DNA of 64,000 bases, from NCBI GenBank assembly GCA_003313425.1, contig NHZP01000024.1, positions 682,001 through 746,000 of the forward strand. The letters are read 5' to 3'. Position 1 is the stretch's first letter, and every line of letters starts with the position of its first letter. This stretch comes from Pseudopyrenochaeta lycopersici. Lineage: Eukaryota > Ascomycota > Dothideomycetes > Pleosporales > Pseudopyrenochaetaceae. Positions 18,193-34,914 of this stretch are shown piece by piece. The translations under genes and the position numbers were made by a program. The notes under the pieces are model-generated. The model had not been told where the DNA came from, did no database searches, and saw only the letters and a list, made by a program, of their open reading frames with translations.

Positions 18193-19263
18193 ATTGAAAG
18201 GACAAATATTGTGATACTTAGATGAGTTTGGAGACTATTTCTGTGGTGTGAGATGCGGACTGAGCTTGTCAGTAGATGTAGTGGCGCAGAGTCCGAGCCG
18301 AGGCGAGATGGCAGACCGTAGAAGATCGGTGCAATGAAGCCTTGGATATACAATCGTAGCAATAAACTACAGAAACCTCTTTTTATGTGTCTCAAGTGTC
18401 GGAATAACACCAAAGTCGACGTTTTAGCAATACCGATGATGATCCATCTATTCCGACGGCAAAGGGCCGAACTATTCACCGAGAAACCAAGAGCCACCAT
18501 ATGACGCTAAGCAGAAACAGAAAAGGGCGGTTTACACGAGAGGAAATAAACTACCCACCGGTGTCTAGAATGGAGTGTCCTGACTTGTTGTAAGCTCGGT
18601 ACTATGAGGTGTACGAATGCTGGTCTGTACCCGATCAACATCGGTGTTCCGAAATCGGCATGGCTTGCCCTGCTGGTGCTCGTACAGTCGCTAGCGAAAC
18701 CGGCTTCACCTCTCAGCACGCCATGAGATTTACCCCGCGCCACTCTTATAAGCTGCGCCACATGTACCTCTACTTTCCCATTATCTATACAAACCGAAGC
18801 ATCCACAAGGTCATGGCCGGTGCGGGTCGACCGTCCTCCCTACTAGTGGTGGCAACTCAAAGTACCATTCTCACTGTCTCGCTAAGGAACTTGAGCATGC
18901 TATCCTCAAATGCCTTCTTGCCTGGGTTGCCGGTCCCAATGGAATAAACAACGCTAATAATTAGATTTTAATCTTAGAATGGATTCTCTTACTGTATTCC
19001 TATCAATTCGCCACTTCGAATTTTTTAACAACCCTCCTTTCGAAAGATAGAGTCTTGGCACTCGTGAAATAGCGCGATCCTATTGGCCTAGAAGCGATAT
19101 GCGTATGGCTCGGTTTTTGCGTATGGCATGAGAGAACCAGGCTCTGCCTTGGTTCGCTGGAACGGCAGCTCATGGCGTTGATCTAGAGGATGGAGGTGGT
19201 GTTGACAGCTTCATAAGAAAGAAGTACCTTTATTGGCTTGAGGCTCTTAGCCTTTGCAAGAGC
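18193..19263. other. Left edge of accessory region
   Basis: About 1.1 kb with no intact gene. It contains one copy (18683-18718) of a 36-bp sequence that recurs inverted at 34879-34914. The minus-strand frame around it reads LRGEAGFASDC, and the copy on the other side reads LRGEAGFANDC, so both may be fragments of one repeated element. Confidence 0.5.
18683..18718 (+). repeat. 36-bp dispersed repeat, left copy
   Basis: It matches the reverse complement of 34879-34914 with a single C/T difference. It lies outside the split membrane gene, about 0.55 kb upstream of its N-terminal half. Confidence 0.75.
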
Positions 19264-19981
19264 ATGTCGCATTGTCCGAGTGGAGCAGCGAAGATTGGGT
19301 CATTCGCGTTGATCAATATTCTGGTTGGAATCGCGACGCCTTTTCTTGGCCGAAGGACGGTCGTCAGACGGCTCACATGCGGCTTCTTGGGCAACCCGGG
19401 GAGTCCCGCATGGCCGCTTGTCTCGCTGTTTGTCGTGGGCATCAATCTTCTTACAAATTTCATCAACGCCATGTCAGTGCAGCGCTTGCCTGGTTATGTC
19501 GTTCCTCCGGTTGGCACGCTCGTCCTCTTCTGGGCGTCCCGTCCTTGACTAGCTTGGCTAGCAACTGCTCTCGCGCTGATACAAAAAGAGAAGAGCATGT
19601 ATACTTCGCTCGCTGCTTCTGCACTCCTGGCAAGAATTTATCTTGCAGTCAATTGGAGCAGTCTTTATCGGCCGTACTGCCGTTTTTGCGTTCAGCAATG
19701 GATACTACTAAAAGAATGCGATCCAATACGGCCCCAGAATGGATTCCGCAATCATCATGTTTGCGGGGGCGCTTCTTTGGGTCGTCACCGTCGGCTTCTT
19801 CTACCTCTACGTCATCTGGAACTATCTTGGTGTTGGGACAATCATCTGGGATTATCTGATAGTCGGCACGATTTTGAAACCCCTTAAAGTCGCCCTTGTC
19901 TTCATCGAGTCTATCATAAGCCAATGTACAGCTTGGGTGTCTGCCAAATTTAAGAGGACAGCTCAGGCAGGGAACCGGGAT
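19264..19981 (+). pseudogene. N-terminal half of split fungal membrane protein gene
   Basis: The frame starts at ATG 19264 (MSHCPSGAAKIGSFALIN) and encodes several hydrophobic segments. It is broken by TGA at 19546-19548, a single-base frameshift near 19631-19634 and TAA at 19709-19711. Reading through these breaks, the order of motifs matches a fungal multi-spanning membrane family: LGRR, LTCG, then SRP-RLAW, then an ALLAEFILQSIGA helix with IGRT, then MFAGALLWVV. The reading ends at 19981, exactly where the terminal inverted repeat of the 13.6-kb segment begins. The family's C-terminal part is found on the same strand at 33597-34232. The TGA could derive from CGA by a C-to-T change. I recall the family from ascomycete genomes but know no function for it. 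Confidence 0.75.
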
Positions 19982-20243
19982 CAGTCAAGTTTTGAGCATT
20001 TTGACCACCGAAACAGCACAAAACCACTAAGTTTACGCTTAAATATCTTCATAACTAAGCCTAAATTAAAATTCTAACTAAATATTTAGATTCTATTAGT
20101 TTAGGAGAGTATTTTAGTATATTAATAGGTCTTATAAAAATACTAATAATAAGTTAAAATTAAGCTTCTATCCTAAAGCATAATTTTAATAGTAATAGGC
20201 TAATAGCTAACTAACACTTTAAAGTAAAAATTAAATATATATA
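19982..20243 (+). repeat. Terminal inverted repeat, left
   Basis: AT-rich sequence of about 255-262 bp, matching the reverse complement of 33342-33596. It diverges at the run TTAAATATATATA. Differences are almost all transitions, as expected from repeat-induced point mutation. Confidence 0.85.
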
Positions 20244-20468
20244 TCTAGTAAGTAGCTATTAGTAAAAAATTTATATACTTTTTTAAATTAAGAAATTACT
20301 TTATAGTAGTATTATTGTTAGATGAAATGCTGAAATAAGCTTTTTAGAAATTAATGATTGCGATGATGGATTATGTGTTGTATCATGATGGTATTCATTG
20401 ATGAGTTCTGCTTTCTTCTATATCTCCTCTGCTTCCGGAGGTTCCGTCGATCAGCAATAGTTATCGTT

Positions 20469-20869
20469 TGTTAAAGATCTAATCAAGTGGTTACAATATA
20501 AAGCAACTGGTGTTGACTAGTGAATTCTTTAGAGTATTCTGTAGACGAGCAGTATCAGGGAGGGTCGAATATGGAAAGTACAAATGGTAGTATACTCGTG
20601 GATTGTCAGAAGTTGATCACAATGTGCCATAAGGGCCACATTGTGCGAGTCTATATACACGATTGTCTCATGGGATTCCCATAAGGCCTCCTCTGGGTTC
20701 TCTGGGTTTGTCTCCGTCCCATGGGACTGAGTCCGTCTTGGCGTGGGTTCTCTGGGATCACGTGACCCTGGCGTCATCGGTTGGTTCAGAGGCTCGGTCT
20801 CTTCGTTGGTCGTCCGTGCCTCCTCCCTCATCCTCATAACCGCCGCCCTTCCCACTTCTGTTCGTAACA
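20469..20869 (-). repeat. Possible solo LTR fragment
   Basis: Read on the minus strand, the stretch opens TGTTACGAACAGAAG at 20869 and can be closed at ...TTTAACA (20469) or ...GTCAACA (20511). These are TG/CA ends like those of fungal Copia LTRs. No matching 5-bp target duplication is visible and no internal polyprotein follows, so this is tentative. Confidence 0.3.
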
Positions 20870-20942
20870 CCGGTCCTACTATTTATCGCTCTTTCCTATG
20901 CAGTACTTCTGAGCTTCTCCTTATATCTGACAATTATTGCTA

Positions 20943-21125
20943 GTTAAGTTTTAAGTATTTTAACTATCGAAATAGTAAAAAATTACCGAGTTTATACTTA
21001 AATATCTCTATAACTAAGGTCGAAATTAAAATTCTAGTTAAATATTTAGATTCTACTTACTAAGGAGAGTATTTTAGCATATTAATAAATCTTAAAAAAG
21101 TACTATAAAAATTAAGGTTCTAAAA
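20943..21125 (+). repeat. Diverged third copy of the terminal repeat
   Basis: It has the same orientation as the left terminal repeat and can be aligned from GTTAAGTTTTAAGT to TTAATAAATCTTA. It is more decayed and AT-shifted, with many C-to-T and G-to-A type differences. It lies just inside the island, next to the 52-bp repeat at 21138-21190. Confidence 0.7.
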
Positions 21126-21137
21126 ATTAGATAGTCT

Positions 21138-21190
21138 CGCGCTAGCCTTGGGTTTTTCCAGATTCTCTTACATTTTGCAAACCACGGTAG
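21138..21190 (-). repeat. 52-bp element end (TA-CCGTGGTTTGC), left copy
   Basis: It matches 32862-32912 in inverted orientation. Each copy starts TA-CCGTGGTTTGCAAAATG and reads away from the gene block. A TA followed by a conserved end fits one end of a Tc1/mariner-like element. Confidence 0.6.
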
Positions 21191-21441
21191 ATGAATATGA
21201 ATAAAAGTTTGGCCAAAAATCCTTGAAAATGAATACGAAAGTGCTCTGATATTCATAGTCATATTCATCAGCAAGCCCTAAATGCCTGAACACAAAACCG
21301 TGCATCTTGTGAGTTAAATATAGCCTGGATATCTATAGCTCCAAATTTTGGACCTTATTGACGTCAATTCTCATCCTTGGTAAAGATGTACTGCCTCGAT
21401 TAGCCAGGTAAACTGTTTAGGGGGGTACTGCGTTTTGACAC

Positions 21442-22615
21442 TCACGAGCTTCGCCTTGCCGCCTCGGTCGAAACCATCCTTCTCAATTTCGAGTCAAACG
21501 CAGACAAAAAATCATCAAGAACTGCAGGGTCAAGCTGGTAGGGCTGTTCGACATCCCTTCCTGCTGTTTTGGCGATTAGTAGGACACGCAGCGAAGCCAT
21601 GAACCCATCTGATGTATCAGTAAGCATCTGATATCCTAGGTCTTTTGGTGTCACGGCACCAAACCGACCAGAAGGACCGAACAGTGTTTGGAATTTTGAG
21701 CGATATCCGCCTCCTGGGGTCAAGTACTTCTCCATTGCTGTCGCAACATCAAGATTTGGCTGTGCCCACATTGCCATGGCGAGGTTGACTGCGTCGACAT
21801 CCTCAATCAAATCTCGAAGCTTGAATGTTGATTGGTCGTCGAACAGATGATCGCGACAATAGTCAGAGCCATGGGGGTATGTGGCGCTATCTCGGCGCCA
21901 TTCAGCGTAGAAAGTGATCAGATCGCCACCCCATCCCGCGAAGTCTCCTCTATTCACGCCATTCGGTAATGGGACACCGTAGACATAGGCGCCGTTCAAG
22001 GAAGCACCGAAATGTGATGCATGGTTGACAACGTTCCATAAGCCATCGGCCCAGCCTGGTACCAAGGTGAAACCTGCGTTTGTGGCTGCTTGAACGAAAG
22101 CAGCGTCGACGGGACCAACGAGATTATCCCAAGCGACATTGTTGTAGTCTTTACTACGAAGCCATTGCATAACCAGTTCATTAGCTCTTGAGGCGTCGTA
22201 GTTTTTCGCAAAGTTGTACACCCTACGAATGTAGGCAGCATAATCGCCAGCCGATCCGCGAGGTAAACAGCACTGAACTGTCGAATCGCCCGGACACAGC
22301 AAAGGAGTGAATCTACCAGGAGGACAGGTTAAACGAGTGGTATCCAAACAGTTTCCACGAAAAGAGTCGATGTTGCAAGCGGCTTTCAAACAGCATCTGA
22401 TGCCCGGTCCATCCAAAGGACAAGCGTTCTGGACCGTCCAGCCTGTATAGACGGAAATTCAGAAATGCAATTGTAAACATGGGAGTTGAGAACATACCAT
22501 CGGTGCAACTCGCAATCTTTTGGCATGTGCCTTGGCCTTGGGAATGAGTGCAGGCATCACCAATTGCTCCATAACTAGGTGTCAAGAAAAACAGCAACGG
22601 AAGGATTGAAAACAT
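21442..22615 (-). CDS. Secreted protein with two six-cysteine modules and an unassigned C-terminal domain
   Basis: Two exons, 22615-22498 and 22442-21442, with a 55-bp intron (GTATGT...TATACAG), give 372 aa. A signal peptide (MFSILPLLFFLTPSYGA) leads into two tandem modules: C22, C31, C37, C47, C56-C57, then C62, C71, C79, C89, C97-C98. Both have the same C...C...C...C...CC order. Similar modules precede enzymatic domains in fungal secreted proteins that attack bacterial walls, from memory. The remaining 270 residues contain the conserved-looking segments GWADGLW, NHASHFGASLNGAYVYG, GDFAGWGGDLITFYAEWR and VDAVNLAM. I cannot assign them to a family; a secreted hydrolase is inference. At the 3' end, a GTGAGT at the stop may be a donor for a further short exon. 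The gene lies inside the 13.6-kb island. Confidence 0.65.
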
Positions 22616-23138
22616 TGTTTGTTCAGATAGCTTCTATGCATATGCGATAAATTTCTTAGTTTGGTACCTGTACTTGAGAGTTTGTTGGTCTGGGGGGAGC
22701 TGAGTTCTGAGGCCATTATGTTGCCAGCCACAAAAGCCAAACGATGCACAGAAGCTCCGGATGCGGAAAAGTACTGAATCAGCTTGAATGATCACACGAT
22801 TTCATGCATATGATGCGGGGCTTCCCAGACGCCAGAGGGCGGCAGATTGACTGGAGCAAATGGAGAGGCCACTGCAGGAAGCTCAGCTGCAGCTTCGTGT
22901 CCAAGCTGAATGCATACTTTGTGCTTTATTGATGGGGTCCCTGGCCAATCACCTCTACACAATGTAGATATCCCGAACGGAATTTACCACGCCAAAAAGC
23001 ATGTCGACGCTTGATTCAAACGCAAGCCATTAGTTGGACTACTACATGCGGACTTGAGCGCAGAACCGCTCTAAACATCACGAAGCATTATTCTCTCCGA
23101 AAATGATAATTAGCACTGGAATAACAGAAATTTTCCAT
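22616..23138. other. Intergenic inside the island
   Basis: About 0.5 kb between the secreted-protein promoter and the 3' end of the first giant gene. Nothing is recognised. Confidence 0.5.
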
Positions 23139-26100
23139 CTAGCACAAGTTAGGGACGGCAACAAGACAACTAGTTCTCAAAATCCTCTGCCGACCCAGAT
23201 CTCCACCGACGGGGTCAGAGACGCGATCGTCCTGGTTAAAGAGCTCCACCGCAAGAGCACTTAATGGCGTATTGGCTTTCAGTCCGTAATTTCTCAAAGC
23301 TAGATTCACTTCCTCGCGTGAAAAATTGCCAAACGAGTAGGTCTTGCCTCCTTCACCAACCGAGCCTCTGGTGCGGCCGACTAGAATGTTGCGCTTCCCC
23401 GACGCCCCGTCGATCTGGGTAGCTTGTGCATACAACATGAACCATATCTGGGTGCCCGGCATACCGATGCGGAGTACCTTTCCGTCCAGTACCGAATATG
23501 CGAATGGTGCAGAGACGCGGATTAGATTATTGTCTCGGTTGAGTGAGCAAGTTAGCTGTGGAGATGGGTGCTGCATGCCACAGACTCGTAGCGGCGCGCC
23601 GAATCGACCTTGTGCTGTAGACCATCTTGTGATATCTTTATCGTTCCAGTGCCCGACGCGGAACTCATATGTCCAGAAACCGAGAAGTTCCAGGCTAGCT
23701 TCTGTTAAGCCGGGAGGGAGTGGCATGCCCCAATGCTTCGGAGATGATGTTGGTATAAGTGGCTGCATGGCGGCTAACCCTGCGGTGTCTGGACTTTGAC
23801 CTGGGACGATGCGACGAATAGGCTCTGGGTCTAACGTGATAGGCGCTTCTTCTGAATCTGGCAAAGGGGCACGACCGCCCAGAAGTAAAGGGTCTGGTGC
23901 ATATTTGAGAACTCGACAGAAGTAACGGTCTTGGCTGTCCTCTAACTCTGACGTGAACTCAAGCCACAACATCTTCTGTCGGGGTAGTGTCATTGTATAT
24001 GCATCATCGCGGATATATGGACTCATGGCTATTCCAGCTGATGCCAGCTGAGGGATCTGGCTAGGAGTGGTAGTTACCGGAAGATCAATCTTCAGCTCAA
24101 TAGGGGTAGAAGCTGGCGCTACCGATCCTAAGAAAGTAGTCTGGATTTTGTATGCGATGTTGAACTCTGCCGGCATTGTTCCTGGCAGCGGCTTGGGATC
24201 GACGACATCAATAATCACGATATCAGTACTGGATCGATCTATCGTTGCGCTCTTCAGGGCTTCATGGTTGACGTTATGGTTCGGAGCAAAGATCACAATC
24301 TCCTTGGTGTCTTTTGTTACCGTTATGCCATCCACAGGAACTCCATCCCACGACCAATCCCGCAGCATTGTCAGGCGAATCGCGATGATCCATTGAAGAG
24401 CCAGACTGGGATGTGATGTGAATGACAAGCTCCCTCTATCGGGACCAAGAATATGCATGATAGAGCTTGAACAGGCAAAAACAACACGTTTTCCTGGTGG
24501 AGAGGTCAATGCTGTTTCTTTATTCGCAAGTTCCAGTGCCGTGGCTAACTGTGTGACAGTTTCCAAAGCTGGCTGCATGTAGATGCCGTTGATAGTGTGG
24601 CTTCCTGTCTTTGCAAACAGATCAACCTCTGTGGTCGCGTTCTTTCGTAGCGGAATGGTGAGCTGTGGACCGCGACGCACGTCTTCGGCACCAAAATATC
24701 GGTCTACAGGGTTAGGTTCATCCCTACATAGGGAGTTGACGCGCAATCGGACTGTACGGGCTCTAGGAAGTCGTAAAGTTGTCAGATTTGGTTCAATCCA
24801 AAGTTTAGGAGGATTCCAGACATCAGGACAATCGATCCATTCAAATACAACCTTCAACGTAGCATTCAAGTCGGCCGGAAAAGCTCGAGTTGTCGTGTAG
24901 AGCTCCATGTAAGGCCCATCAACTGTGAGAGGATCCTGAGTGAGTGTCTGCAACAAAACAGTGATTTCGAGTCTATCAACGTCTGGGTCTGGTAAAGAAG
25001 GCTCCAAAGCAGGATCACCGTCAGCAGGCGGCGGATTGGCGGCTATCTGGTCTGCCATCGCTTCTAACAATTTGGCAGCATTGGGATATCCAGCGTACAT
25101 GACGCCGGGATAGAACATTGGAGGTCTTTTTAGCTCAATCAAGTCGATCGGTGGATCATGTTCGGAGCCAGGTGCATCTTTTATTGAGGGCATATTACTC
25201 CAAAACTGAGGTACTAAAGGCTTGATCCATCGTCTGAATGTGATTTTGGGCATGGGACTTGGACCAAGATTGCTTGGAACAGAGTTGAGAGAGGGTCCTC
25301 CACCAGTGTGATCCGTCAATCGTACGCGAAACTGATACTTCCTGCCGTAACGCAGTTGCAGGTTTGAATCCACAAGCCCATAGTGCTCGAACTTTGATGA
25401 AATCGCACCAGGTCGCGTTAGTGGTGGTTTTAAGCGACCCAGGAGTTTTAGAGCTAACTTGTCCAGACCTACGAGGGAAGGTTGTGTCCAATTTGAAAAG
25501 TACATTGGCATCCAGTACGTGAGGGCCGTGGTGTCCACCGGAGAAACTGGGTGGATTTCAACGCCTAGTTCGCCCTGGATTTGTCCAAATATGGTATCTC
25601 CAACTCCAAAGTTCCCTTCGGCTCTGGACAACGAAATCCATCTATTCAAAGACACATCGAGAACATCAACACGATAGCCATGAACTCCGAGAGGAAAAGG
25701 ATCAAACTGAGACTTCGTGGGGTCGATATGCCGATCAGCCCAGATAGTTACCTGTTCGTCGTCCCACCCAATTCGGATGCCAATATCTTTTGCTGGCCTA
25801 GTATCATTTGGTGCTTCGCTAATTATATTGACATTTTCCGGTTGAATGCAGTGAACTGCCTTTGCCCAGCCGTCGGTATAGCCCTCGACCTCCTGGAAGA
25901 TTTGGTCATAATTGACGCTTCCCAGGTTTGCGGGGTTTACAACAGGAAATAACACGGCTGTGAATAAATCTCTTGATGTAGTCAAAACAGGAATTCGTGC
26001 TGAGAAGGTTTTTATCGATTTGGGGTCGGTGGCACCAATCAAGGTGGCAGTTTGTGGATCTAATTCAAACCATACGTACCCGCCATCTTTGAGTCCATCG

Positions 26101-26717
26101 GGCGGTATTTGTACGTCCTTAGTCCGCACAAATCCAGCCGCAGCAGCGAAATCTGGGATCCTGAGAATGGATGCTATCAGTTCACCCCAGGACAATTTAA
26201 ACTCCAGCGGCGGTGATATTCGTGAATATTTCTGAGCGCGAGGTTGTTTCATGGCGCATGAGTATGTGTTGTCAGTAGTGAACATGTTGCTTCCACCTGG
26301 AGTGTAGTTTGTTGCATCCCGATATGAGGCAGGCAGATGCTTGCGAACAGAAATGGGAGCAGTACCATCCGTTGGGTCTCTAGGTCTCTTGGGGTTTTTG
26401 TCAATTACGCTTCCAAAAATTTCAACTAAGCGTTTGAAGACTGCAGCGTAAGATGGGTCGCGAGGAAAAGTGATGCTTTGAGCGACGGTTCCGCCCTGAG
26501 GAGTTGGTAGTCCGTTTCGCAGCCCCGACATGAGCCGCGCGTCGAACTTGAAATCAACATTTGGAAAGTACTTGGGAGAATTCTGGTCATTTTGGGCATA
26601 TGGTATGATGAATGGGTCTCGAGGGACAATCAAAATGCGCAATGAGAGCTTGTTCGAGGGTGAATCCCAATGCTGGGCAAATGGAAGGACTAAGACTTTG
26701 ATTGATGGATCTTGCAT
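23139..26717 (-). CDS. Giant cytosolic beta-rich protein A (unknown family)
   Basis: One uninterrupted frame of 1,192 codons from ATG 26717. There is no signal peptide or membrane helix. Three segments look like fibronectin-III-type sandwich strands: GYRVDVLDVSLNRW near residue 346, YGRKYQFRVRLTDHTGGGPS near 459, and RWSTAQGRFGAPLRVCGMQH near 1040. Such tryptophan- and proline-rich stretches recall large bacterial multidomain proteins, but I cannot name a family. The frame stays open 22 codons upstream of the ATG (to about 26783), and those codons read like real protein (RLRLYEELPNVLTARTRH). They begin right after a CTTCTCCAG acceptor-like site, so a small 5' exon is probably missing. The gene is divergent from giant gene B across about 0.9 kb. 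A long, nearly intronless frame is unusual among its neighbours and suggests foreign origin. Confidence 0.7.
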   Translation of the reverse strand: MQDPSIKVLVLPFAQHWDSPSNKLSLRILIVPRDPFIIPYAQNDQNSPKYFPNVDFKFDARLMSGLRNGLPTPQGGTVAQSITFPRDPSYAAVFKRLVEIFGSVIDKNPKRPRDPTDGTAPISVRKHLPASYRDATNYTPGGSNMFTTDNTYSCAMKQPRAQKYSRISPPLEFKLSWGELIASILRIPDFAAAAGFVRTKDVQIPPDGLKDGGYVWFELDPQTATLIGATDPKSIKTFSARIPVLTTSRDLFTAVLFPVVNPANLGSVNYDQIFQEVEGYTDGWAKAVHCIQPENVNIISEAPNDTRPAKDIGIRIGWDDEQVTIWADRHIDPTKSQFDPFPLGVHGYRVDVLDVSLNRWISLSRAEGNFGVGDTIFGQIQGELGVEIHPVSPVDTTALTYWMPMYFSNWTQPSLVGLDKLALKLLGRLKPPLTRPGAISSKFEHYGLVDSNLQLRYGRKYQFRVRLTDHTGGGPSLNSVPSNLGPSPMPKITFRRWIKPLVPQFWSNMPSIKDAPGSEHDPPIDLIELKRPPMFYPGVMYAGYPNAAKLLEAMADQIAANPPPADGDPALEPSLPDPDVDRLEITVLLQTLTQDPLTVDGPYMELYTTTRAFPADLNATLKVVFEWIDCPDVWNPPKLWIEPNLTTLRLPRARTVRLRVNSLCRDEPNPVDRYFGAEDVRRGPQLTIPLRKNATTEVDLFAKTGSHTINGIYMQPALETVTQLATALELANKETALTSPPGKRVVFACSSSIMHILGPDRGSLSFTSHPSLALQWIIAIRLTMLRDWSWDGVPVDGITVTKDTKEIVIFAPNHNVNHEALKSATIDRSSTDIVIIDVVDPKPLPGTMPAEFNIAYKIQTTFLGSVAPASTPIELKIDLPVTTTPSQIPQLASAGIAMSPYIRDDAYTMTLPRQKMLWLEFTSELEDSQDRYFCRVLKYAPDPLLLGGRAPLPDSEEAPITLDPEPIRRIVPGQSPDTAGLAAMQPLIPTSSPKHWGMPLPPGLTEASLELLGFWTYEFRVGHWNDKDITRWSTAQGRFGAPLRVCGMQHPSPQLTCSLNRDNNLIRVSAPFAYSVLDGKVLRIGMPGTQIWFMLYAQATQIDGASGKRNILVGRTRGSVGEGGKTYSFGNFSREEVNLALRNYGLKANTPLSALAVELFNQDDRVSDPVGGDLGRQRILRTSCLVAVPNLC

Positions 26718-26795
26718 TGCGAATTTGCTGTGTCGAGTGCGTGCGGTGAGGACGTTAGGCAGCTCTTCGTAAAGTCGCAGCCTGGAGAAGGTTCA

Positions 26796-27689
26796 ATGAG
26801 AAATAAGATGACCGGCAAACCTTTACGTTGAGGAGACTCAAGTGCGCAACACCCGTAGCAAGCAAACAGCGACAGATGAGGACAATGGAACACTACAGCC
26901 CTCACGCTTGTAGACATCAAACGACTTGTGAACGTAAAGTTTGCTCTAGCCTCGAAGTTTTGCTGGCCGATAAAGGAGAGCTCAGCAGTATTCTAAGTTT
27001 ATCGTCACAGCATCGTGAGCTAGCAAAACTTGGACCGAAGGTGGGATAAGGATTGCACATGAAACCGCCCCCAAGCACATCAACCACAGATGCGCTGAAA
27101 TCATTGGAAGATTAATGCATCGTGCATTTCAGCTCGACTTCGGTGTGTCTACATGCAAGCCACACCGGAAAAGAACAGTCGCACATAGGCGATAAAAGCA
27201 GCTAATTAGAGCGTCAAGTTGAACCAGAGGAGTGGCCTGTTTCGAGGTAAGAGGGCGATCTCCGCACCTGCGGCATGTCACCAAACCATGCCGAGCCGCT
27301 TCATTCGACAAGCCAGGTTTATTCTAGTGTCACGCTAAACAACGATGAGCTGAGTCTATTCTTCACGTGTTAGAGAAAACTCCTACGATACGATGATGGG
27401 TGCAAAGAGGCTAGAGCTAGTTGGGCTCTAGGGCCTGATCGCAAACCCGTGTGCAGTGCAGACGCACTGGCGGGGGTTTGCTTTTAGCGCAGCCAACATG
27501 TAGCAACCAAAGACACTTCGGTGATCGCAGCGATTCCAGTGTACAGTAGCTAGTGGAAAGGTGAAGCAGGTTTGCCACCGACACACCACCCCCTTATCCC
27601 TCTTGTGCTCGACCTTTGCTTCCCGCCGATGCTGCTGTTGATCGATACCAACGGACATCAACCACCAAGACCCAACTATCCTCACCTCT
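26796..27689. promoter_or_regulatory. Divergent promoter of the giant gene pair
   Basis: About 0.9 kb between the two giant genes, close to the midpoint of the concentric inverted repeats. It may also hold the missing first exon of gene A near 26.8-26.9 kb. No clear shared motif is seen. Confidence 0.45.
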
Positions 27690-30600
27690 ATGGCAGCAAT
27701 CGACTGGAACCAGGCTAGAAAATGGCTGGTAGCTCTTACATACGATTTGCAGCCATCTCAGACGACGACCACCGAATCTCTACTCGCGGCGAGACAAGAC
27801 ATTGCTTTGGCTATTCTGTCGGGTCAAGATCAACTACCAAGCTCTTTTGGATATTCTCTTCCCTATAGCCCCGACCTAATCGACCTCCCAGCATCTCAAT
27901 GGGCTGAATTCGACAAAGCGAAGCCAACTGTGATTCCGACACCAAAACAGCGTATTCTACGCAGAACACTGGGTCTACATTCTCCCGCCGTGGATTCTGT
28001 TAACCAGAGCAGTTTGGACAGTCTTCTCGGCCTCGAGCCCAACATAAGTCACGGCCCGTTTCTTGATTCTCTCAACCGACTCGTGTATATTGACGTTTTC
28101 AAACCTGTTACCACCCGAGAGCATGCATTTCCTGGTGCTGGCTAGCCTGTTTACTTATACCTGGCCGCCCCGATTGTCTCCAATGGGCATTTTCAAGTAA
28201 CCCTTGGTGCTGGCACCGTTTGGATTCGAGCGGACCTACTCACGGCATCCAACCCGATAGAAGATAAGGCGCCTCCAGACTGTTTCTTTGGTCTTAAAAT
28301 CCTTAGCGGTGTGATGACAACTCCGCCTGTTCCCACTGCATCACGGAGCTTAAGGGTGAAATTGGATGGAAGTCCTAGGATATCGAGAGAATTCTCAATC
28401 ACACCGGTAGCGGAGGTGTCATTTTCGTTTAACTTCTCGAACACCACAAACACGACAGTGACTACCACCATTGGCAATGGAGATGCCTCGGTATTTGGTT
28501 CAAGTTTTAGGATAACGCAGTCTCCCTTAGGGGTGATCTTTGACAACGTGTTAGGAAGATTGAACTTTGCTATGGCTTCAGATTCTTCTAATTTCCAACC
28601 TACACCCAACGCCTCAGCACTCTTAGATGTATCGGGCACATCCGGAGTAAAGAAGGTTGCCTGGAGCGTAATTGTGAAGAGATCATCTGATAAAACTTTC
28701 TACGCTGCTTCGTCTCCCGGTGGGTTCGCTATTTCTTTAAATCCTGGAATCAAGATGGGAATCTTTGCAGAGAGCACCAGTGTAGCGCTTGACACATGCA
28801 CTCTAGTTGTAGACCCTGAAACGGCATTCATTACGGGAATGAAAGCAATAATATCAATAAAGCCACGAATTGTTATGGTGGGAAAGATCGGAACGAGTGG
28901 AAACAGCCAAAACTCGTGCACATTTTTGCCAGAGCAGCTGACGATGTTCTACTATCTTGCAAATATCAACGGTACAGAATCCTGGACTGTGAAATCCAAC
29001 ATGAGCGTTTCCCTGGATCAGCCACGCACTGTCAACAACGAGCGGATGACTATGGAAGCTACAAATGTACCAGAGTTTCCGTGGACTACGATGACTTGGC
29101 TTCTTGAATCAAACTCTCATAATACTTTGCTCAATATCCAAGCGACAAACCTTTCTCCAAAGACAGAGTCCTTTGCTCTGAAGAATCTCCTTCTCATTGC
29201 AGATACACCGCATTCAATTGACATTGTTGGTGTGTATGGGTCTGAGAATTTAGTATCGGCTAGAGCTAGAATGGTATCTGTGATGCGGTACGCGCTTCCA
29301 TTCCTCCCCGACCCATATGTCACGAACTTCGAGTTACAAGTTAATCCGGCGATTCGAAAGAATGGCATGGGATACTTGACAATTTTCGAAACGTGGGGTG
29401 ACGAGATAGTGCCAGTATTGGACCTAGACATGATGACAGGACTAGCTATTCCAGCCAGGACGATGGAACGCAAAGACTCCAATCTTGATGACATCACACT
29501 TGGAGATATCCGTCGAGGAAAGTATTGGGAACCTGCTAGGAATGTTGTTTTGACTGAATTAAATAACGGCCTCATTCCAGATCTGGGCGTTGGTCAGATC
29601 TTTCACATCCCAGATCAACCCAGTAGCGATGGCAATAACACCTCACACTTCAATCCTCCAACGTTGCTTGACGTTTCTTCAAGCTCATCGCAATGGGGTG
29701 TTGTCTTTGGCACCAACTATTTTGACTCTGGTCGTCGAGAAACAAATCTAGAACAAGCGGCTACTTTGTCAACCGCAGTTGGGAATATCCCCCTACCTCT
29801 AGCCGCGACAGACTTCCGAATTTCAAATTTGATGCTTGAAAGTGGGTCAGCAAATGTTCGCATTATGACTCTTCCGGCCTGCCATTGGGAGCCGATATGG
29901 GAAGCCCCGGATATAACTACAGTACCTGTAACTCTAGGAGCGCAGTATAGGTTCCCGTACTCTGGACCATCGACGCAAATAGCAATCAAGGATGCAAAAA
30001 CCACATCACCTTCAGTTAGACTAGTCCCAGTTGCTCCCCGGGAGGCGATTGACAGCTTGATTGGCAGCTACAACTCAACAGCTGAAGCAACGGTGGCTAC
30101 TCGCTGCTCACTCCCTTTCGGAATGGTTTTTGTCGCCGCATTGAACAACACACCTCCATTACTTCAAAAAGCAGCTCAAATGAACAAGATTGATTTCACA
30201 TTAGGTGGAAACGAAGATCCCAAAACGAAATTGAAGTCTTCAAAGCTTCAACCAGTTGATCAAATTTGGTTCAAACCACCTGAGCGACGGGTAATCCGCT
30301 TACCAACTCGCGCGTCTGGACCTCGCAAACTTACTGGCCATATAGATCCCGTTTTTCCTGGGTCTACGGCCTTGCTGAAGCTCGAAAATGGACCAAAGCT
30401 GCCAAATAACTCAAGTGGTGAGTTGATGGATCCTGCAACGCCCAATTTCAATGGCGATATGTTATCTCAGGTGCCCTTACTTCGATTCGATATATCTGGT
30501 TACGGATCTTCAATTTTCAGCGACTGGAAAAGAGTTCTTGGGCCAACAGACACAGAGCCGGCCATTACAAACACCCTTTTGAACGTCATCAATGGCCGAA

Positions 30601-32702
30601 CCTCGCGAGAGGTAATCGAGCTGCAATCCGTCATGGCTCCATTCGCTGTCACCGTTGTCCAAACTATTGAAATCAGGAGGCTCAACAGCAGCGTCGTTGT
30701 GCGACACAAAAGTGAATGGCACGCTATGTCCGATGGTGCCTATTTCTTCAAAAACCCAGACATTGTCACACATCCAGGTATCATCCGAGGCGTAAGGGAT
30801 ATTCGAAATATTCGAGAAATGGGCATATTCACAGAGTATATCCCGGTGAAGTTCGACTGCATAGTTGACATTGAAGATAAAGGCCAACGTCGCAATATTC
30901 CGGGACTGAATCTAGATGGCTTCGTGTTTCATGTACCCCCAACCCCTGACTTATACGCCAAATTGCTCAACCAAGTTGAAGTTGGCGGTCATATTGATGC
31001 CATTGTCGATATCGGGATGTCGAGTCAGAAGAAGCGCATTACTTCAATTTCTGTGAAGCCTGCAACTGACCCTGCCACAGGGATACCAGTGGCCGTAGTT
31101 GCGGCCTTGGGATCTCCAATCTTCCCTGGAGGTGGACAGTGGTCATTTTCCCGAATGGCTGGTGACAAACAACCCCAGCGAGTAGATTTGGCAAAGGGCG
31201 TGCCGCTTGTGAAGGTAGGACGGCACGATGCAGACAACTTACCCAATATTCCAACACCCTATATATTCAGAGATCCGCAAGATCTCCTTAGCGGAACCCC
31301 AACAACCGTTTATGGTCTCATCCATGGGGCTGCTTCGCACAGAGTGCTATTCTCCAGTCCTGAAATTCCATTTCAACAAACCATCAAGCAGGGAATCGAG
31401 TCTGCTAATGTGTATGTCGCAGACTCGCTCGCCTTAGGAAACTCCAAGGGCATATTTCCCAACATTAACACCGATTGCCTTCCAGTTAAAATTGCAGATC
31501 CGAAGTCTTTTCTCGAAATCGTAGCGGGTGGCGGGTATAAGTTCGAGCCGACGCGACTTCTGAATGGCGTCCATGTACCCCAGCTGGAATTGGACGATCT
31601 CGCGCGAACCATCAAGGATGATGCGGGGGTGAAAACAGTCGCACAGGTAGTAAACCTCGGAAAAGGCCTAGGAGATGCCGGAAAGGACTTAGTTGGGGAT
31701 ATTGCAGGTGCGAAGTCAACTCTCAGCCTAGCTATCAATACAGTTGAAAACATATCAAAAATGGATGTCACCAACATCCACATGGTTACCAAGAATGTCA
31801 AAGAGACGCAAGAGGCAGTAGAGAACACCGCAAAGGAAGCTAATCGAGTCATTGGTAGGCTCAGTAGCGATGTCAAGAAGATCGGTGGACTCCTTGGTGC
31901 AGACCCAGACTTGCCGAGCATCCCTGGCCTTCCCGATGTTGGCAAATATGTAATTCACAAGTTTGGACCGGCTTTAGACCAGGTTCAGTCGGTCCTCAGC
32001 TTCCTGGAGAACCTGAAATTCCTTCCAAACTTCAAAGTTTCCATGACAAACGAGTGGGGGATGGTAATGAGCACATCGATGAATCGGAAAGACCTCCTAG
32101 ACAAGATCGGAGCGCCAACGAACGAAGCTGTGGGCCGAGTCATCGACTCATTTGACTTCATTCTCTCTGTAACGTTGTCGCTGGCAGCTTTCCTTCTCAA
32201 ATTGCACGTCGGCACCACCATCAAGATCCCCACTGGCTTTGGGCCTATCGTAGCTATAGGCAAGGGCGCCTTCGATGTCGCACTGTCAACAAGTTCAGCC
32301 GTACAAGTCAAGCTCGATCTAGGCTTCGGTATTGGCGTTGACTTCAGCATCGGGCCTTTTTCAGCGAGCGCGAGTTTCACGCAGTCGCAGACCATCATAT
32401 TCAGCAACGACATCTTCGGCGTAGGTATCACGGCGTGCATGAGAGCCCACATCGATCTGGTCGTCGCGTCGGCTGATCTATATCTGGAGGCCAGGCTGCT
32501 TGTGGTTGGAGGAACATGTGACAACCACACCGGTCACAATTCCACAACTATCTGGGCATTTGCGCAAGTCAAAATAGCGATTCACGTCAGTATCTTCCTA
32601 GTTTGTAATATTGGTTTTGAGGAACAGACCCAGTGGGAGAACAGACTGAACGGCGGTCTTTGTGAACTAGACCACATGTCCTCCTTGGTTGCAGGGCCTT
32701 GA
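27690..32702 (+). CDS. Giant protein B, ~1,670 codons, with in-frame TAG at codon 152
   Basis: The frame opens at ATG 27690 (MAAIDWNQARKWLVALTY) and runs to 32702, interrupted only by TAG at 28143-28145. Immediately after the TAG the same frame continues with 55 convincing codons (PVYLYLAAPIVSNGHFQV) before the next ATG at 28311. The TAG is either a nonsense mutation (CAG to TAG fits a RIP-type CpA to TpA change) or the last three bases of an in-frame 51-nt intron, 28095-28145 (GTTTTC...GGCTAG). The donor and branch of that intron are weak. The protein has no signal peptide. A helical, heptad-like region covers residues about 1310-1395. The last 185 residues alternate hydrophobic helices and amphipathic strands (for example FILSVTLSLAAFLLKLHVG). 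I recognise no family. It is intronless or nearly so and paired head-to-head with protein A. Confidence 0.65.
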
Positions 32703-32750
32703 AGTCAAAAACTACTGAATAACTTGGCTAGGCGGAGAGTATGCTCCGGA

Positions 32751-32799
32751 ACTTCTCGCTTTTTCGAATGGATTGCTCTTGCCCACAAAAGCGAGAAGT
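32751..32799. repeat. Hairpin-forming inverted repeat downstream of giant gene B
   Basis: ACTTCTCGCTTTT at 32751-32763 is the perfect complement of AAAAGCGAGAAGT at 32787-32799, with a 23-nt loop. It starts 48 bp after the stop. It could be a 3'-UTR hairpin or the footprint of a small element. Confidence 0.6.
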
Positions 32800-32861
32800 G
32801 GAGGGGGCTACTACCGCGGGAAAAGACAGCGGGGTGGGTACGGTACGGGGGCCTATTACCG

Positions 32862-32912
32862 TGGTTTGCAAAATGTAAGAGAATCCAGAAAAACCTAAGG
32901 CTAGCGCGTATA
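32862..32912 (+). repeat. 52-bp element end (TA-CCGTGGTTTGC), right copy
   Basis: Inverted partner of 21138-21190 with only a few mismatches. It starts after TA and reads rightward, out of the gene block. Confidence 0.6.
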
Positions 32913-33341
32913 AAGGGTACTGTAAGGCACAGTATATAATCGTGCTGCAGTCCGTACGGAGAGTTTTGGGTCGCGTTGGAGAGCTTGGAGGGCAGTCTGT
33001 ATATCGGCCTCCTTTGATTTGGCTTTTGTTTGGGTAATTGGATGCATACTGTGGGCGACAGTAGATTTTGATGTGGTCTTGGCAAAACTGATCAGCTCGC
33101 TTGTGAAGTACGTTATATGTCCGTACGAGGTAAACTGCTCATTCTTGTACCTATTCGGCCCGACTCTCAGGGGCTCTCAGGGGCTCCTGGGCAGCCTATA
33201 GAGAGGTCTCTCTCTCGCACGAGAGAGAGGCTAGGTCAAGGAATACAACTATCTTTCATCTCCCCCCTGAGCGTACGCGCGTGCGGCTCTGTTGGTACCA
33301 CCAGATGCGTAGCCATCTAAAGAGGTAAAAGCCAACCGACA
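32913..33341. other. Repeat debris between right-hand repeats
   Basis: About 430 bp without a gene. It contains a CTCTCTCTCG-CAC-GAGAGAGAG-like short palindrome near 33210-33232 and GGGGCTCTCAGGGGCTC duplications, as in decayed retroelement ends. Confidence 0.35.
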
Positions 33342-33596
33342 TTATATATATTTAATTTTTACTTTAGAGCGTTAGTTAGCTACTACTATTAAAATTATGC
33401 TTTAGGATAGAAGCTTAATTTTAACTTACTATTAGTATTTTTATAAGACCTATTAATATACTAAAATACTCTCCTTAACTAATAGAATCTAAATATTTAG
33501 TTAGAATTTTAATTTAGACTTAGTTATAAAGATGTTTAAGCGCAAACTCGGTGGTTTTGTGCTATTTTGGTGGTCAAAATGCTCAAAACTTGACTG
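33342..33596 (-). repeat. Terminal inverted repeat, right
   Basis: Reverse-complement partner of 19982-20243, alignable over about 255 bp. It ends ...GCTCAAAACTTGACTG at 33596, directly next to the C-terminal half of the split gene. Confidence 0.85.
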
Positions 33597-34232
33597 ATTG
33601 TAGCCAGGCACCGAGATAACAAGGGCCCAATGGCATCTCGGATTTCAGATTCTTGCACCGGATGTAGTGATGCAGACCGACTTGAAAACACCAGGGCGGC
33701 GGCGGGAATCACTATTCACGAGCACCTTCATGTAATTGAATCACCTTTCCAGGCTCGATGCCCCTACACAACGAGATACGGTCCTGTCGAATCCGACGAT
33801 GCTGACTTGAACGGTCCAAGAACACGACATTGGATCAACAATGAGAACATCGATGCTAGACCCGTACCTGCGGTCTTGGATCTCCTTCCAAACGGGATGA
33901 ACTGGCCTAATAATGCGACAGTAAATGCGGAGAACCATATCACCTGGGAGGACCATCTCAACAGAATGGGATTGGATCGCCGTACATTATACCTGATCAA
34001 TATCGTGTTTATCTTCATGCTGGTGCCTTTCCTTGGGCAGTTCCTCTTTTGGGTCGGCTTTGTAGGGCTGTTTGACAACAAGTGCGAAGCTTCTGTCCTA
34101 AGAAATTCGAAAGAAAGGCTGACAATTTTGTATAGGTACTGCCCTCCGAATATTTGGCAATTGATGAGCGTGTGGACAGCATTATCGTGGTTAGGTAACT
34201 TAGTCGTTGGCTCTGCCGCAACCAAGTGCTAA
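33597..34232 (+). pseudogene. C-terminal half of split fungal membrane protein gene
   Basis: The frame is open from the first base after the right terminal repeat, with a first ATG at 33630. Removing a 54-bp intron (34082-34135, GTGCGA...GGCTGACAATTTTGTATAG) gives GLFDNK joined to YCPPNIWQ. That restores the WxGFVxLxxxxYCPPxxxxQxxxWTxxSxLG ending of the same membrane family as 19264-19981. Two membrane segments are visible (IVFIFMLVPFLGQFLFWVGFV and the final helix). Reading phase is zero at both insertion borders. This half shows no stop or frameshift, unlike the N-terminal half. It has no promoter of its own that I can see. It could still be expressed as a truncated small membrane protein. 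Confidence 0.7.
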
Positions 34233-34650
34233 CCTGATCAAGGTGTGTTCCTTGATGCTTCTTGCTAGCGAAGCGAGTATTTACAAGGAAGGACGATATT
34301 GAACTATTCCTATACTATTCATTATGATAGTAGCTTTGTAGTTGTATGCCCACGTGGACAACTGTCTCTCTTGCTCCGCATTCACATTTGTCGTTCTCCT
34401 AAAACCGTGGAGTTTGGCATGGGTGGCTAGCCGTAAATGTCCTGTTCTAAGCTGTGTTGCTATATTCCTCTACTAGGGACCGTAGAGATTTTATGTTTGC
34501 TTTTAACAGAAGCTCTATTTTACGTAGGTGTTGGCCATTTCCTAGTGGTCTGCCATTCCTTCCACCATGGCTAGAGCATCGGCTATATAATAGTGGGTGA
34601 GCCCCTCCACTGTCATGGGTATATCGTATTAATGAGTTAACGAGCCTTCG

Positions 34651-34878
34651 GGGTTGCCACTTTTTTAGTAATTACTAATTTTTAGAATTACTTATTAAAA
34701 CAGTAACATTACTAATCTAAGAGTAGTTCAACTATAATATTAATATATACCTATTACTAAAGCCTTTTAAACTTAGAGTTCTTTTAAAAAGGTAATATTA
34801 CTTTTTTAAAAAGTAACTCTAAAAACTAGTAATTACTATTACTAAAAAAAATAGTAATTACTAAAAAAGTGGTAACCC
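34651..34878. mobile_element. 228-bp MITE-like element
   Basis: It is bounded by 27-bp terminal inverted repeats with a single G/A mismatch: GGGTTGCCACTTTTTTAGTA on the left, and its near-complement ending GGTAACCC on the right. The interior is very AT-rich, with no coding capacity. No flanking target duplication is clear. Confidence 0.7.
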
Positions 34879-34914
34879 TGCTGAGAGGTGAAGCCGGTTT
34901 CGCTAACGACTGTA
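34879..34914 (-). repeat. 36-bp dispersed repeat, right copy
   Basis: Inverted copy of 18683-18718 with one mismatch. It abuts the MITE end exactly, so the MITE may have inserted at its border. Confidence 0.7.

Follow-up and report, generated by a model that had tools for sequence, protein, structure and literature searches.

Nested transposon ends around a giant bacterial-type gene pair and a secreted TelC-like gene in the fungus Pseudopyrenochaeta lycopersici

The stretch of DNA described here spans positions 682,001 to 746,000 of contig NHZP01000024.1 (assembly GCA_003313425.1) of the ascomycete Pseudopyrenochaeta lycopersici and is 64,000 nucleotides long (hereafter, the window). It contains a 13.6-kb block, which is bounded by a pair of inverted repeats and holds three genes: a gene for a secreted cysteine-rich protein (gene C) and two giant genes (A and B), which lie head to head on opposite strands. 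The first-pass annotation, made from the letters of the DNA, described this block as a transposon-like unit with terminal repeats of about 255 bp, three genes, two of them giant and divergent, and no transposase. The repeats, the three genes and their orientation were all recovered in the present analysis. The main features are as follows, in window coordinates:

19980-20243, plus strand, left arm of the inner inverted repeat
21442-22615, minus strand, gene C, secreted protein of 372 amino acids, exons 22615-22498 and 22442-21442
23139-26717, minus strand, gene A, 1192 amino acids, bacterial family, no internal stop
26718-27689, no strand, intergenic region shared by the head-to-head genes A and B
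27690-32702, plus strand, gene B, 1671 codons including the stop, bacterial family, one internal TAG at 28143
32904-33176, minus strand, remnant of the N-terminus of a pogo-type transposase, HTH_psq at residues 56-91
33343-33598, minus strand, right arm of the inner inverted repeat

Gene A has no stop in its 1192 codons, where 57 would be expected by chance, and gene B has a single internal stop (the TAG, codon 152) in 1670 codons, where chance predicts 83. Thus, both genes appear to have been kept long after their arrival. The start of gene B had initially been placed at 28311; it lies at 27690 instead. The N-terminal part up to 28310 aligns with bacterial B proteins across the in-frame TAG. 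Four in-phase GT-AG introns could span this TAG, none of which has a usual donor, and two of which would delete residues that align with bacterial B proteins. Gene B may be freshly broken, or it may hold an odd intron over the TAG.

By protein comparison, A and B match a bacterial two-gene unit of constant order. A tblastn search of plasmids with gene A gives matches in four records, three of which are full length (33-36% over 99%) and belong to Chlorohelix (Chloroflexota) and to the alphaproteobacteria Tistrella and Microvirga. For gene B, three plasmid records match at 26-28% over about half its length. One genome contig, from Flavihumibacter (Bacteroidota), carries a relative of gene A at 35%, and A matches occur in 20 of 395 Bacteroidota genomes (10 along most of the model, the other 10 as short, weak matches). 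The A/B pair is present in three bacterial phyla, and in all 11 complete bacterial loci (L006-L009 and L031-L037) B is followed by A, adjacent and in the same direction, and no open reading frame (ORF), annotated or long, intervenes. This count leaves out L020, in which the pair is cut, and L038, in which A lies at a contig edge. At L007, the annotated B is short (1230 aa) and ends about 1 kb before A. Three distant loci (L039-L041) are counted apart: they have two adjacent long ORFs, of which A matches weakly and B only by its place and length. The bacterial pair is exemplified by two hypothetical proteins, TMO_RS20780/20785. The fungal proteins resemble this unit over the full length of A and over part of B, and the genes likewise lie side by side; however, the one-strand B-then-A order of bacteria is not kept and the fungal pair is head to head. 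The genes next to the bacterial pairs differ between loci; a catalase or katG gene is found near the pair in two of the three plasmids (L006 7173-9347; L007 20419-22539). In a tree of 14 A proteins, fungal A joins Tistrella within the bacterial sequences with a support of 96/93, and the other inner branches are open.

Neither gene A nor gene B has a match in Pfam or NCBIfam. In the Protein Data Bank (PDB), A has no match and B has one at chance level (E 0.36), and PADLOC and PHROGs return nothing for the fungal or Chlorohelix A and B, save one PHROG match at E 0.36. Matches of the distant B protein of L041 in PADLOC and PHROGs lie in a coiled-coil-like stretch. A profile of 14 A proteins finds an FN3 design at E 0.052, which at most hints at beta-sandwich domains in A. 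A predicted structure of A with one homologue (A5) has a mean pLDDT (predicted local distance difference test score) of 27 with no residue above 50, and was not used. Neither giant gene is a copy of the other (best local match E 0.24). The viral contigs searched contain no relatives of gene A (53 pattern matches, none of them confirmed). No N-terminal signal peptide is seen by eye in the fungal A or B; the distant B of L039 (8600-13480, minus strand) has a Tat-like motif, RRDVLGLAA, near its start, also by eye, and the nearer B proteins have no signal. Accession searches of the literature retrieved no paper naming the A/B pair. This gene pair is the part of the block furthest from known families.

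Gene C fits the secreted two-module cysteine-rich protein that the first-pass annotation had described. It consists of two exons separated by a 55-bp GT-AG intron (22497-22443), and its product has a signal peptide, a cysteine-rich N-terminal part and a TelC-like module. A paralogue on contig C1 has both modules and is 37% identical over residues 2-314. In a Streptomyces protein of 778 residues, the main module aligns with the final 270 (32.5% over 82%, E 5e-29); towards its N-terminus this protein has PG_binding_1 and Rv2525c_GlyHyd-like parts. The module is equivalent to the C-terminal region of Streptomyces and Lactobacillus proteins that carry PG_binding_1 and Rv2525c domains, and in gene C the cysteine-rich secreted N-terminus stands in place of the peptidoglycan-binding and TIM-barrel parts. 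TelC itself is described as a lipid II phosphatase of Streptococcus intermedius (PMC5555719), and fungal or actinomycete TelC-Rv2525c proteins are assigned to the Lipocone superfamily (PMC12419801). As these two accounts give it, members of the TelC family have conserved His and Asp residues, and the helix-4 Asp is followed by another Asp six positions later (PMC12419801, PMC5555719). In an alignment of four such proteins, H135, D158, D165, D202, D206, D208 and R251 are invariant (P0003 numbering). Gene C has in common with TelC the invariant His and Asp residues and, further along the chain, an invariant Arg, and its D202 and D208 are six residues apart, which is the published spacing if D202 is taken as the helix-4 Asp. 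Gene C probably encodes a secreted TelC-type enzyme, which may cleave lipid II. A search of viral contigs and of phages produced no relative of gene C, and P0003 has one weak PHROG match (E 0.055). The predicted structure of the gene C protein (mean pLDDT 40) was too poor and was not used for a fold search.

The block that holds these genes is delimited by the two inner arms. In a comparison of the window with itself, 19980-20243 matches 33598-33343 in inverted orientation with 92.4% identity over 264 columns, and the outer ends of the arms read CAGTCAAGTTTTGAGC at 19982 and its complement at 33581. The left and right arms agree at 242 positions and differ by 11 transitions, one transversion and 9 gap columns. 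Their G+C content is 0.24 (left) and 0.25 (right), compared to 0.491 for the window, and this low value and the substitution pattern both resemble repeat-induced point mutation. The exact inverted matches of at least 20 bases in the window comprise the inner pair, two pairs nested round the same block (18692-18718/34879-34905 and 21161-21189/32857-32885) and one AT-rich palindrome (34657/34852), and 20 first-order Markov controls have no such match in any of them.

The end of the inner repeat was found at this locus only. A DNA search of the 62.7-Mb genome (188 contigs) with the left arm finds the repeat end in three places, all of them here; this search skips common words and, taken alone, gives a lower bound. 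A pattern of the inner end that tolerates C-to-T changes finds the same three places in the genome, and its reversed control finds none. Neither the left-arm search nor the tolerant pattern finds, elsewhere in the genome, other copies with the same ends, which the first-pass annotation suggested looking for, or further copies of the inner unit as a whole. With the inner block removed, the flanks would share AT at the join, not TA. Because its ends lack a TA duplication and have no other copies, the inner unit is not filed as a pogo element.

A transposase, said at first to be missing from the block, is present as a remnant. The frame 32904-33176, just inside the right inner repeat, matches HTH_psq (PF05225) in Pfam with E 3.8e-7 and 30.1 bits (cut-off 20.4). 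It is cut short and has no DDE domain, and its nearest other match in the genome is on contig C25 (66%). The genome is rich in the pogo-type DDE_1 domain: among 742 candidates, 150 were scored and all 150 are above the cut-off, so that a transposase acting in trans on the ends of the block is plausible. None of these 150 scored matches (592 candidates are unscored) is on contig C24.

The following features flank the block or accompany its ends:

18683-18718, plus strand, left outer inverted repeat, TA followed by 34 bp starting CAGTCG
19150-19315, plus strand, dispersed coding repeat fragment, the first ~60 residues of the frame 19132-19542
19249-19980, plus strand, left flanking gene fragment coding for a hydrophobic protein
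20316-20869, no strand, solo-long-terminal-repeat-like stretch, starting TGTTAGATG and ending CGTAACA
20942-21115, plus strand, third, degraded copy of the inner repeat end
21138-21189, plus strand, left copy of a 52-bp repeat, inner edge at TA
32857-32908, minus strand, right copy of the 52-bp repeat
33630-34232, plus strand, right flanking ORF of 200 amino acids with hydrophobic stretches
34651-34880, no strand, AT-rich palindromic stretch resembling a miniature inverted-repeat transposable element, inverted matches 34666-34712/34792-34838 and 34651-34683/34846-34878
34879-34914, minus strand, right outer inverted repeat, 34 bp followed by TA

Relatives of the two flanks are found close together elsewhere in the genome. 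Residues 40-137 of the left flanking frame (19132-19542) match C38:53267-53560 (53%, plus strand), and residues 101-174 of the right flanking ORF match C38:54109-54339 (39%, plus strand), where two stops interrupt the sequence. On C38 the two are ~550 bp apart, in the same order and on the same strand, and in the window they are ~14.4 kb apart, so that the block looks inserted between them. The C38 arrangement thus supports an insertion of the block between the left and right flanking fragments. The flanking fragments were also considered as halves of one gene in swapped order; this was dropped, since C38 has them in the same order. The right flanking ORF and three outer-flank ORFs have no Pfam match. 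Nearly all of the 61 genome matches of the frame 19132-19542 are accounted for by its first ~60 residues, the fragment 19150-19315, which we take to be a piece of an NLR-type gene. Elsewhere in the genome, repeats of this fragment often lie within frames of 600-1200 codons.

Further repeats are nested inside and outside the inner arms. The third copy of the inner repeat end lies inside the left side of the block and is far more degraded than both arms; its differences from the right arm are mostly C-to-T and G-to-A. The solo-long-terminal-repeat-like stretch sits between two copies of the inner repeat end, and no target duplication is seen around it. The 52-bp repeats, which match at 94% in inverted orientation when the window is compared with itself, face inward with TA at the inner edge on either side, and a search of the genome finds two copies, both at this locus.

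The outer pair is 36 bp long, with a 97% inverted match by the same comparison. Its homology stops exactly at TA on both sides (18683-18684 and 34913-34914), with CAGTCG next inward. A pattern of the outer repeat with at most 3 mismatches occurs at five places in the genome (control, 0), which are the two arms of this locus, a single site on C63 and two sites on C11 in inverted orientation. When 18600-19160 is used as the query of a DNA search, 38 places are hit; apart from the query itself, five of them have their edge within one base of 18683, namely the right arm of this locus, the two ends on C11 and the copies on C63 and C13. A short repeat at 18804-18874, present at ~25 genome places with 80-96% identity, explains most of the other matches. 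Since the homology ends at TA and the other copies have the same edge, the outer edge is a true element end, and the outer TA-flanked inverted pair is a member of a separate repeat family. The copies on C63 and C13 have no partner at up to 3 mismatches. The two ends on C11 (721320-747885) form a second inverted pair, 26.6 kb apart, with arms longer than those in the window, and also share an extra stretch of ~95 bases. In the window, the AT-rich palindrome 34651-34880 (of GGGTTGCCACTTTTTTAG... type) adjoins the right outer repeat at the very point at which the match between the two outer repeats ends.

Fot1/pogo elements belong to the Tc1-mariner superfamily, are about 2 kb long and, in the case of Fot1, have an end that begins (C)AGTCAAG. 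The present locus is like them in its Psq-type helix-turn-helix (HTH) remnant, in having such an end and in the TA at the edges of the outer pair, and unlike them in its size of 13.6 kb, its arms of ~260 bp, the missing DDE domain and the inner ends without TA duplication. Of the traits of a Tc1-mariner/pogo element, the inner unit has the terminal inverted repeats (TIRs) and lacks the TA duplication, a transposase with HTH_psq and DDE_1, and further copies; the outer pair, judged as a TA-type TIR element, has both TA-flanked inverted ends and other copies with the same edge. Among precedents, ToxhAT comes closest; it is described as a 14.3-kb TIR element that carries ToxA in fungal wheat pathogens (PMC6737239). 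In that account, the 74-bp TIRs of ToxhAT are ~92% alike and no target-site duplication was found, the element encloses NLR-type domains and an HTH gene that has TIRs of its own, and repeat-induced point mutation is noted in the TIRs of some copies (PMC6737239). On these points the block is similar: it is of comparable size, lies on a fungal chromosome, has TIRs ~92% alike with no target duplication, and contains an HTH transposase remnant. Compared to the 74-bp arms and fungal cargo reported for ToxhAT (PMC6737239), it has ~260-bp pogo-type arms, an extra TA-flanked pair and a bacterial gene pair. Kinship between the two is not claimed.

Rather than a single clean element, the locus is made up of transposon ends nested in one another. 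Of the non-autonomous or composite unit initially proposed, the DNA-transposon-like structure and the insertion, as indicated by the C38 flanks, hold up; the notion of a single clean element does not, given the third copy, the outer TA-flanked pair, the AT/AT flanks and the transposase remnant. That a block of bacterial-type genes was inserted and now lies within this nest of old DNA-transposon ends has, in our judgement, slightly better than an even chance of being correct. The view that fits the block best is that of an old composite, in which pogo-type ends surround inserted genes, two of them of bacterial origin, and which lies within a larger TA-flanked structure. A and B would have come to the fungus from a bacterium and would later have turned head to head; a trans-acting transposase would have moved the block or captured it between pogo-type ends, and these ends would then have decayed by repeat-induced mutation. 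Since the composition of A and B (G+C 0.495 and 0.482) is that of the host, such a transfer would not be recent. Gene C would act as a secreted TelC-type enzyme that cleaves bacterial lipid II outside the fungal cell, and A and B would most likely work together, as a complex in which two beta-rich proteins are both required. Several observations weigh against this explanation. The inner ends have no TA duplication (the junctions GGGAT/CAGTC and GACTG/ATTGT share AT only), the tolerant pattern finds no autonomous partner with these ends in the genome, and the right-flank relative on C38 is weak, with its 39% match and two stops. Gene B has its internal TAG. The cargo has the G+C content of the window, so that its composition gives no sign of a foreign origin, and the case for the direction of transfer depends on the spread of A and B among bacteria, as a single fungal copy of the two was available. 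The paralogue on C1 means that gene C may be an ordinary fungal gene rather than foreign cargo, and the TelC structure 5UKH is not among the PDB matches of the gene C profile (A9) up to E 10, which are three weak, unrelated ones.

Independent relics would account for the third copy and the 52-bp pair just as well as a single element would. The repeat arms could be two or three solo or deleted pogo-type copies that landed round genes which had arrived by another route, as would suit the additional copy of this end on the left side, much more degraded than the other two, an inward-facing 52-bp pair with TA at both inner edges, and the lack of TA duplication at the outer edges of the inner arms. 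This is possible but the less probable account, because all three end copies found in 62.7 Mb fall within 13.6 kb, the arms are of similar length, 92% alike and outward-facing, and the break with the C38 arrangement lies at the arms to within a few hundred bases. Alternatively, the mobile unit would be the 16.2-kb block between the TA-flanked outer repeats (18683-34914), with the inner repeats as a nested relic. We hold this only tentatively: the outer edges have TA exactly where homology ends, the family has five other copies with the same edge (including the right arm), and the pair on C11 has longer arms 26.6 kb apart, whereas the right arm here is 36 bp long and adjoins the AT-rich palindrome, and the copies on C63 and C13 are unpaired. 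Moreover, such an outer unit is compatible with an inner insertion.

A bolder proposal, which we regard as rather unlikely, goes beyond the inserted block: the TelC-type enzyme and the two-protein system would form one mobile kit between pogo-type ends, taken from bacteria and used against bacteria, and the outer family, with its pairs 16 and 27 kb apart, would represent giant cargo-bearing TIR elements. It is very doubtful that A and B are old fungal genes of vertical descent that bacteria have taken up. Their composition is fungal-like and the comparison covers one fungal copy, but the pair occurs in three bacterial phyla in constant order, far deeper than one fungal branch, and the fungal A branch lies inside the bacterial tree. 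Contamination or a wrong contig join is highly improbable, as ordinary fungal genes lie on both sides within the same contig, gene C has its GT-AG intron and a paralogue in the genome, and the G+C content of the window is constant.

With an inserted block of bacterial-type genes in a nest of old transposon ends as the preferred explanation, the element belongs to a known kind and its cargo is unfamiliar. Three separately testable subjects meet in this locus, namely a giant bacterial protein pair, its location in a fungus and the transposon ends that surround it. The A/B family is described by none of four profile libraries (Pfam, NCBIfam, PADLOC and PHROGs), and the transposon ends round the pair suggest how a foreign multi-gene block was carried. 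If gene C does encode a TelC enzyme, the fungus would possess an activity directed against the wall precursors of bacteria, and the outer repeat family offers a route to further large cargo elements in this genome.

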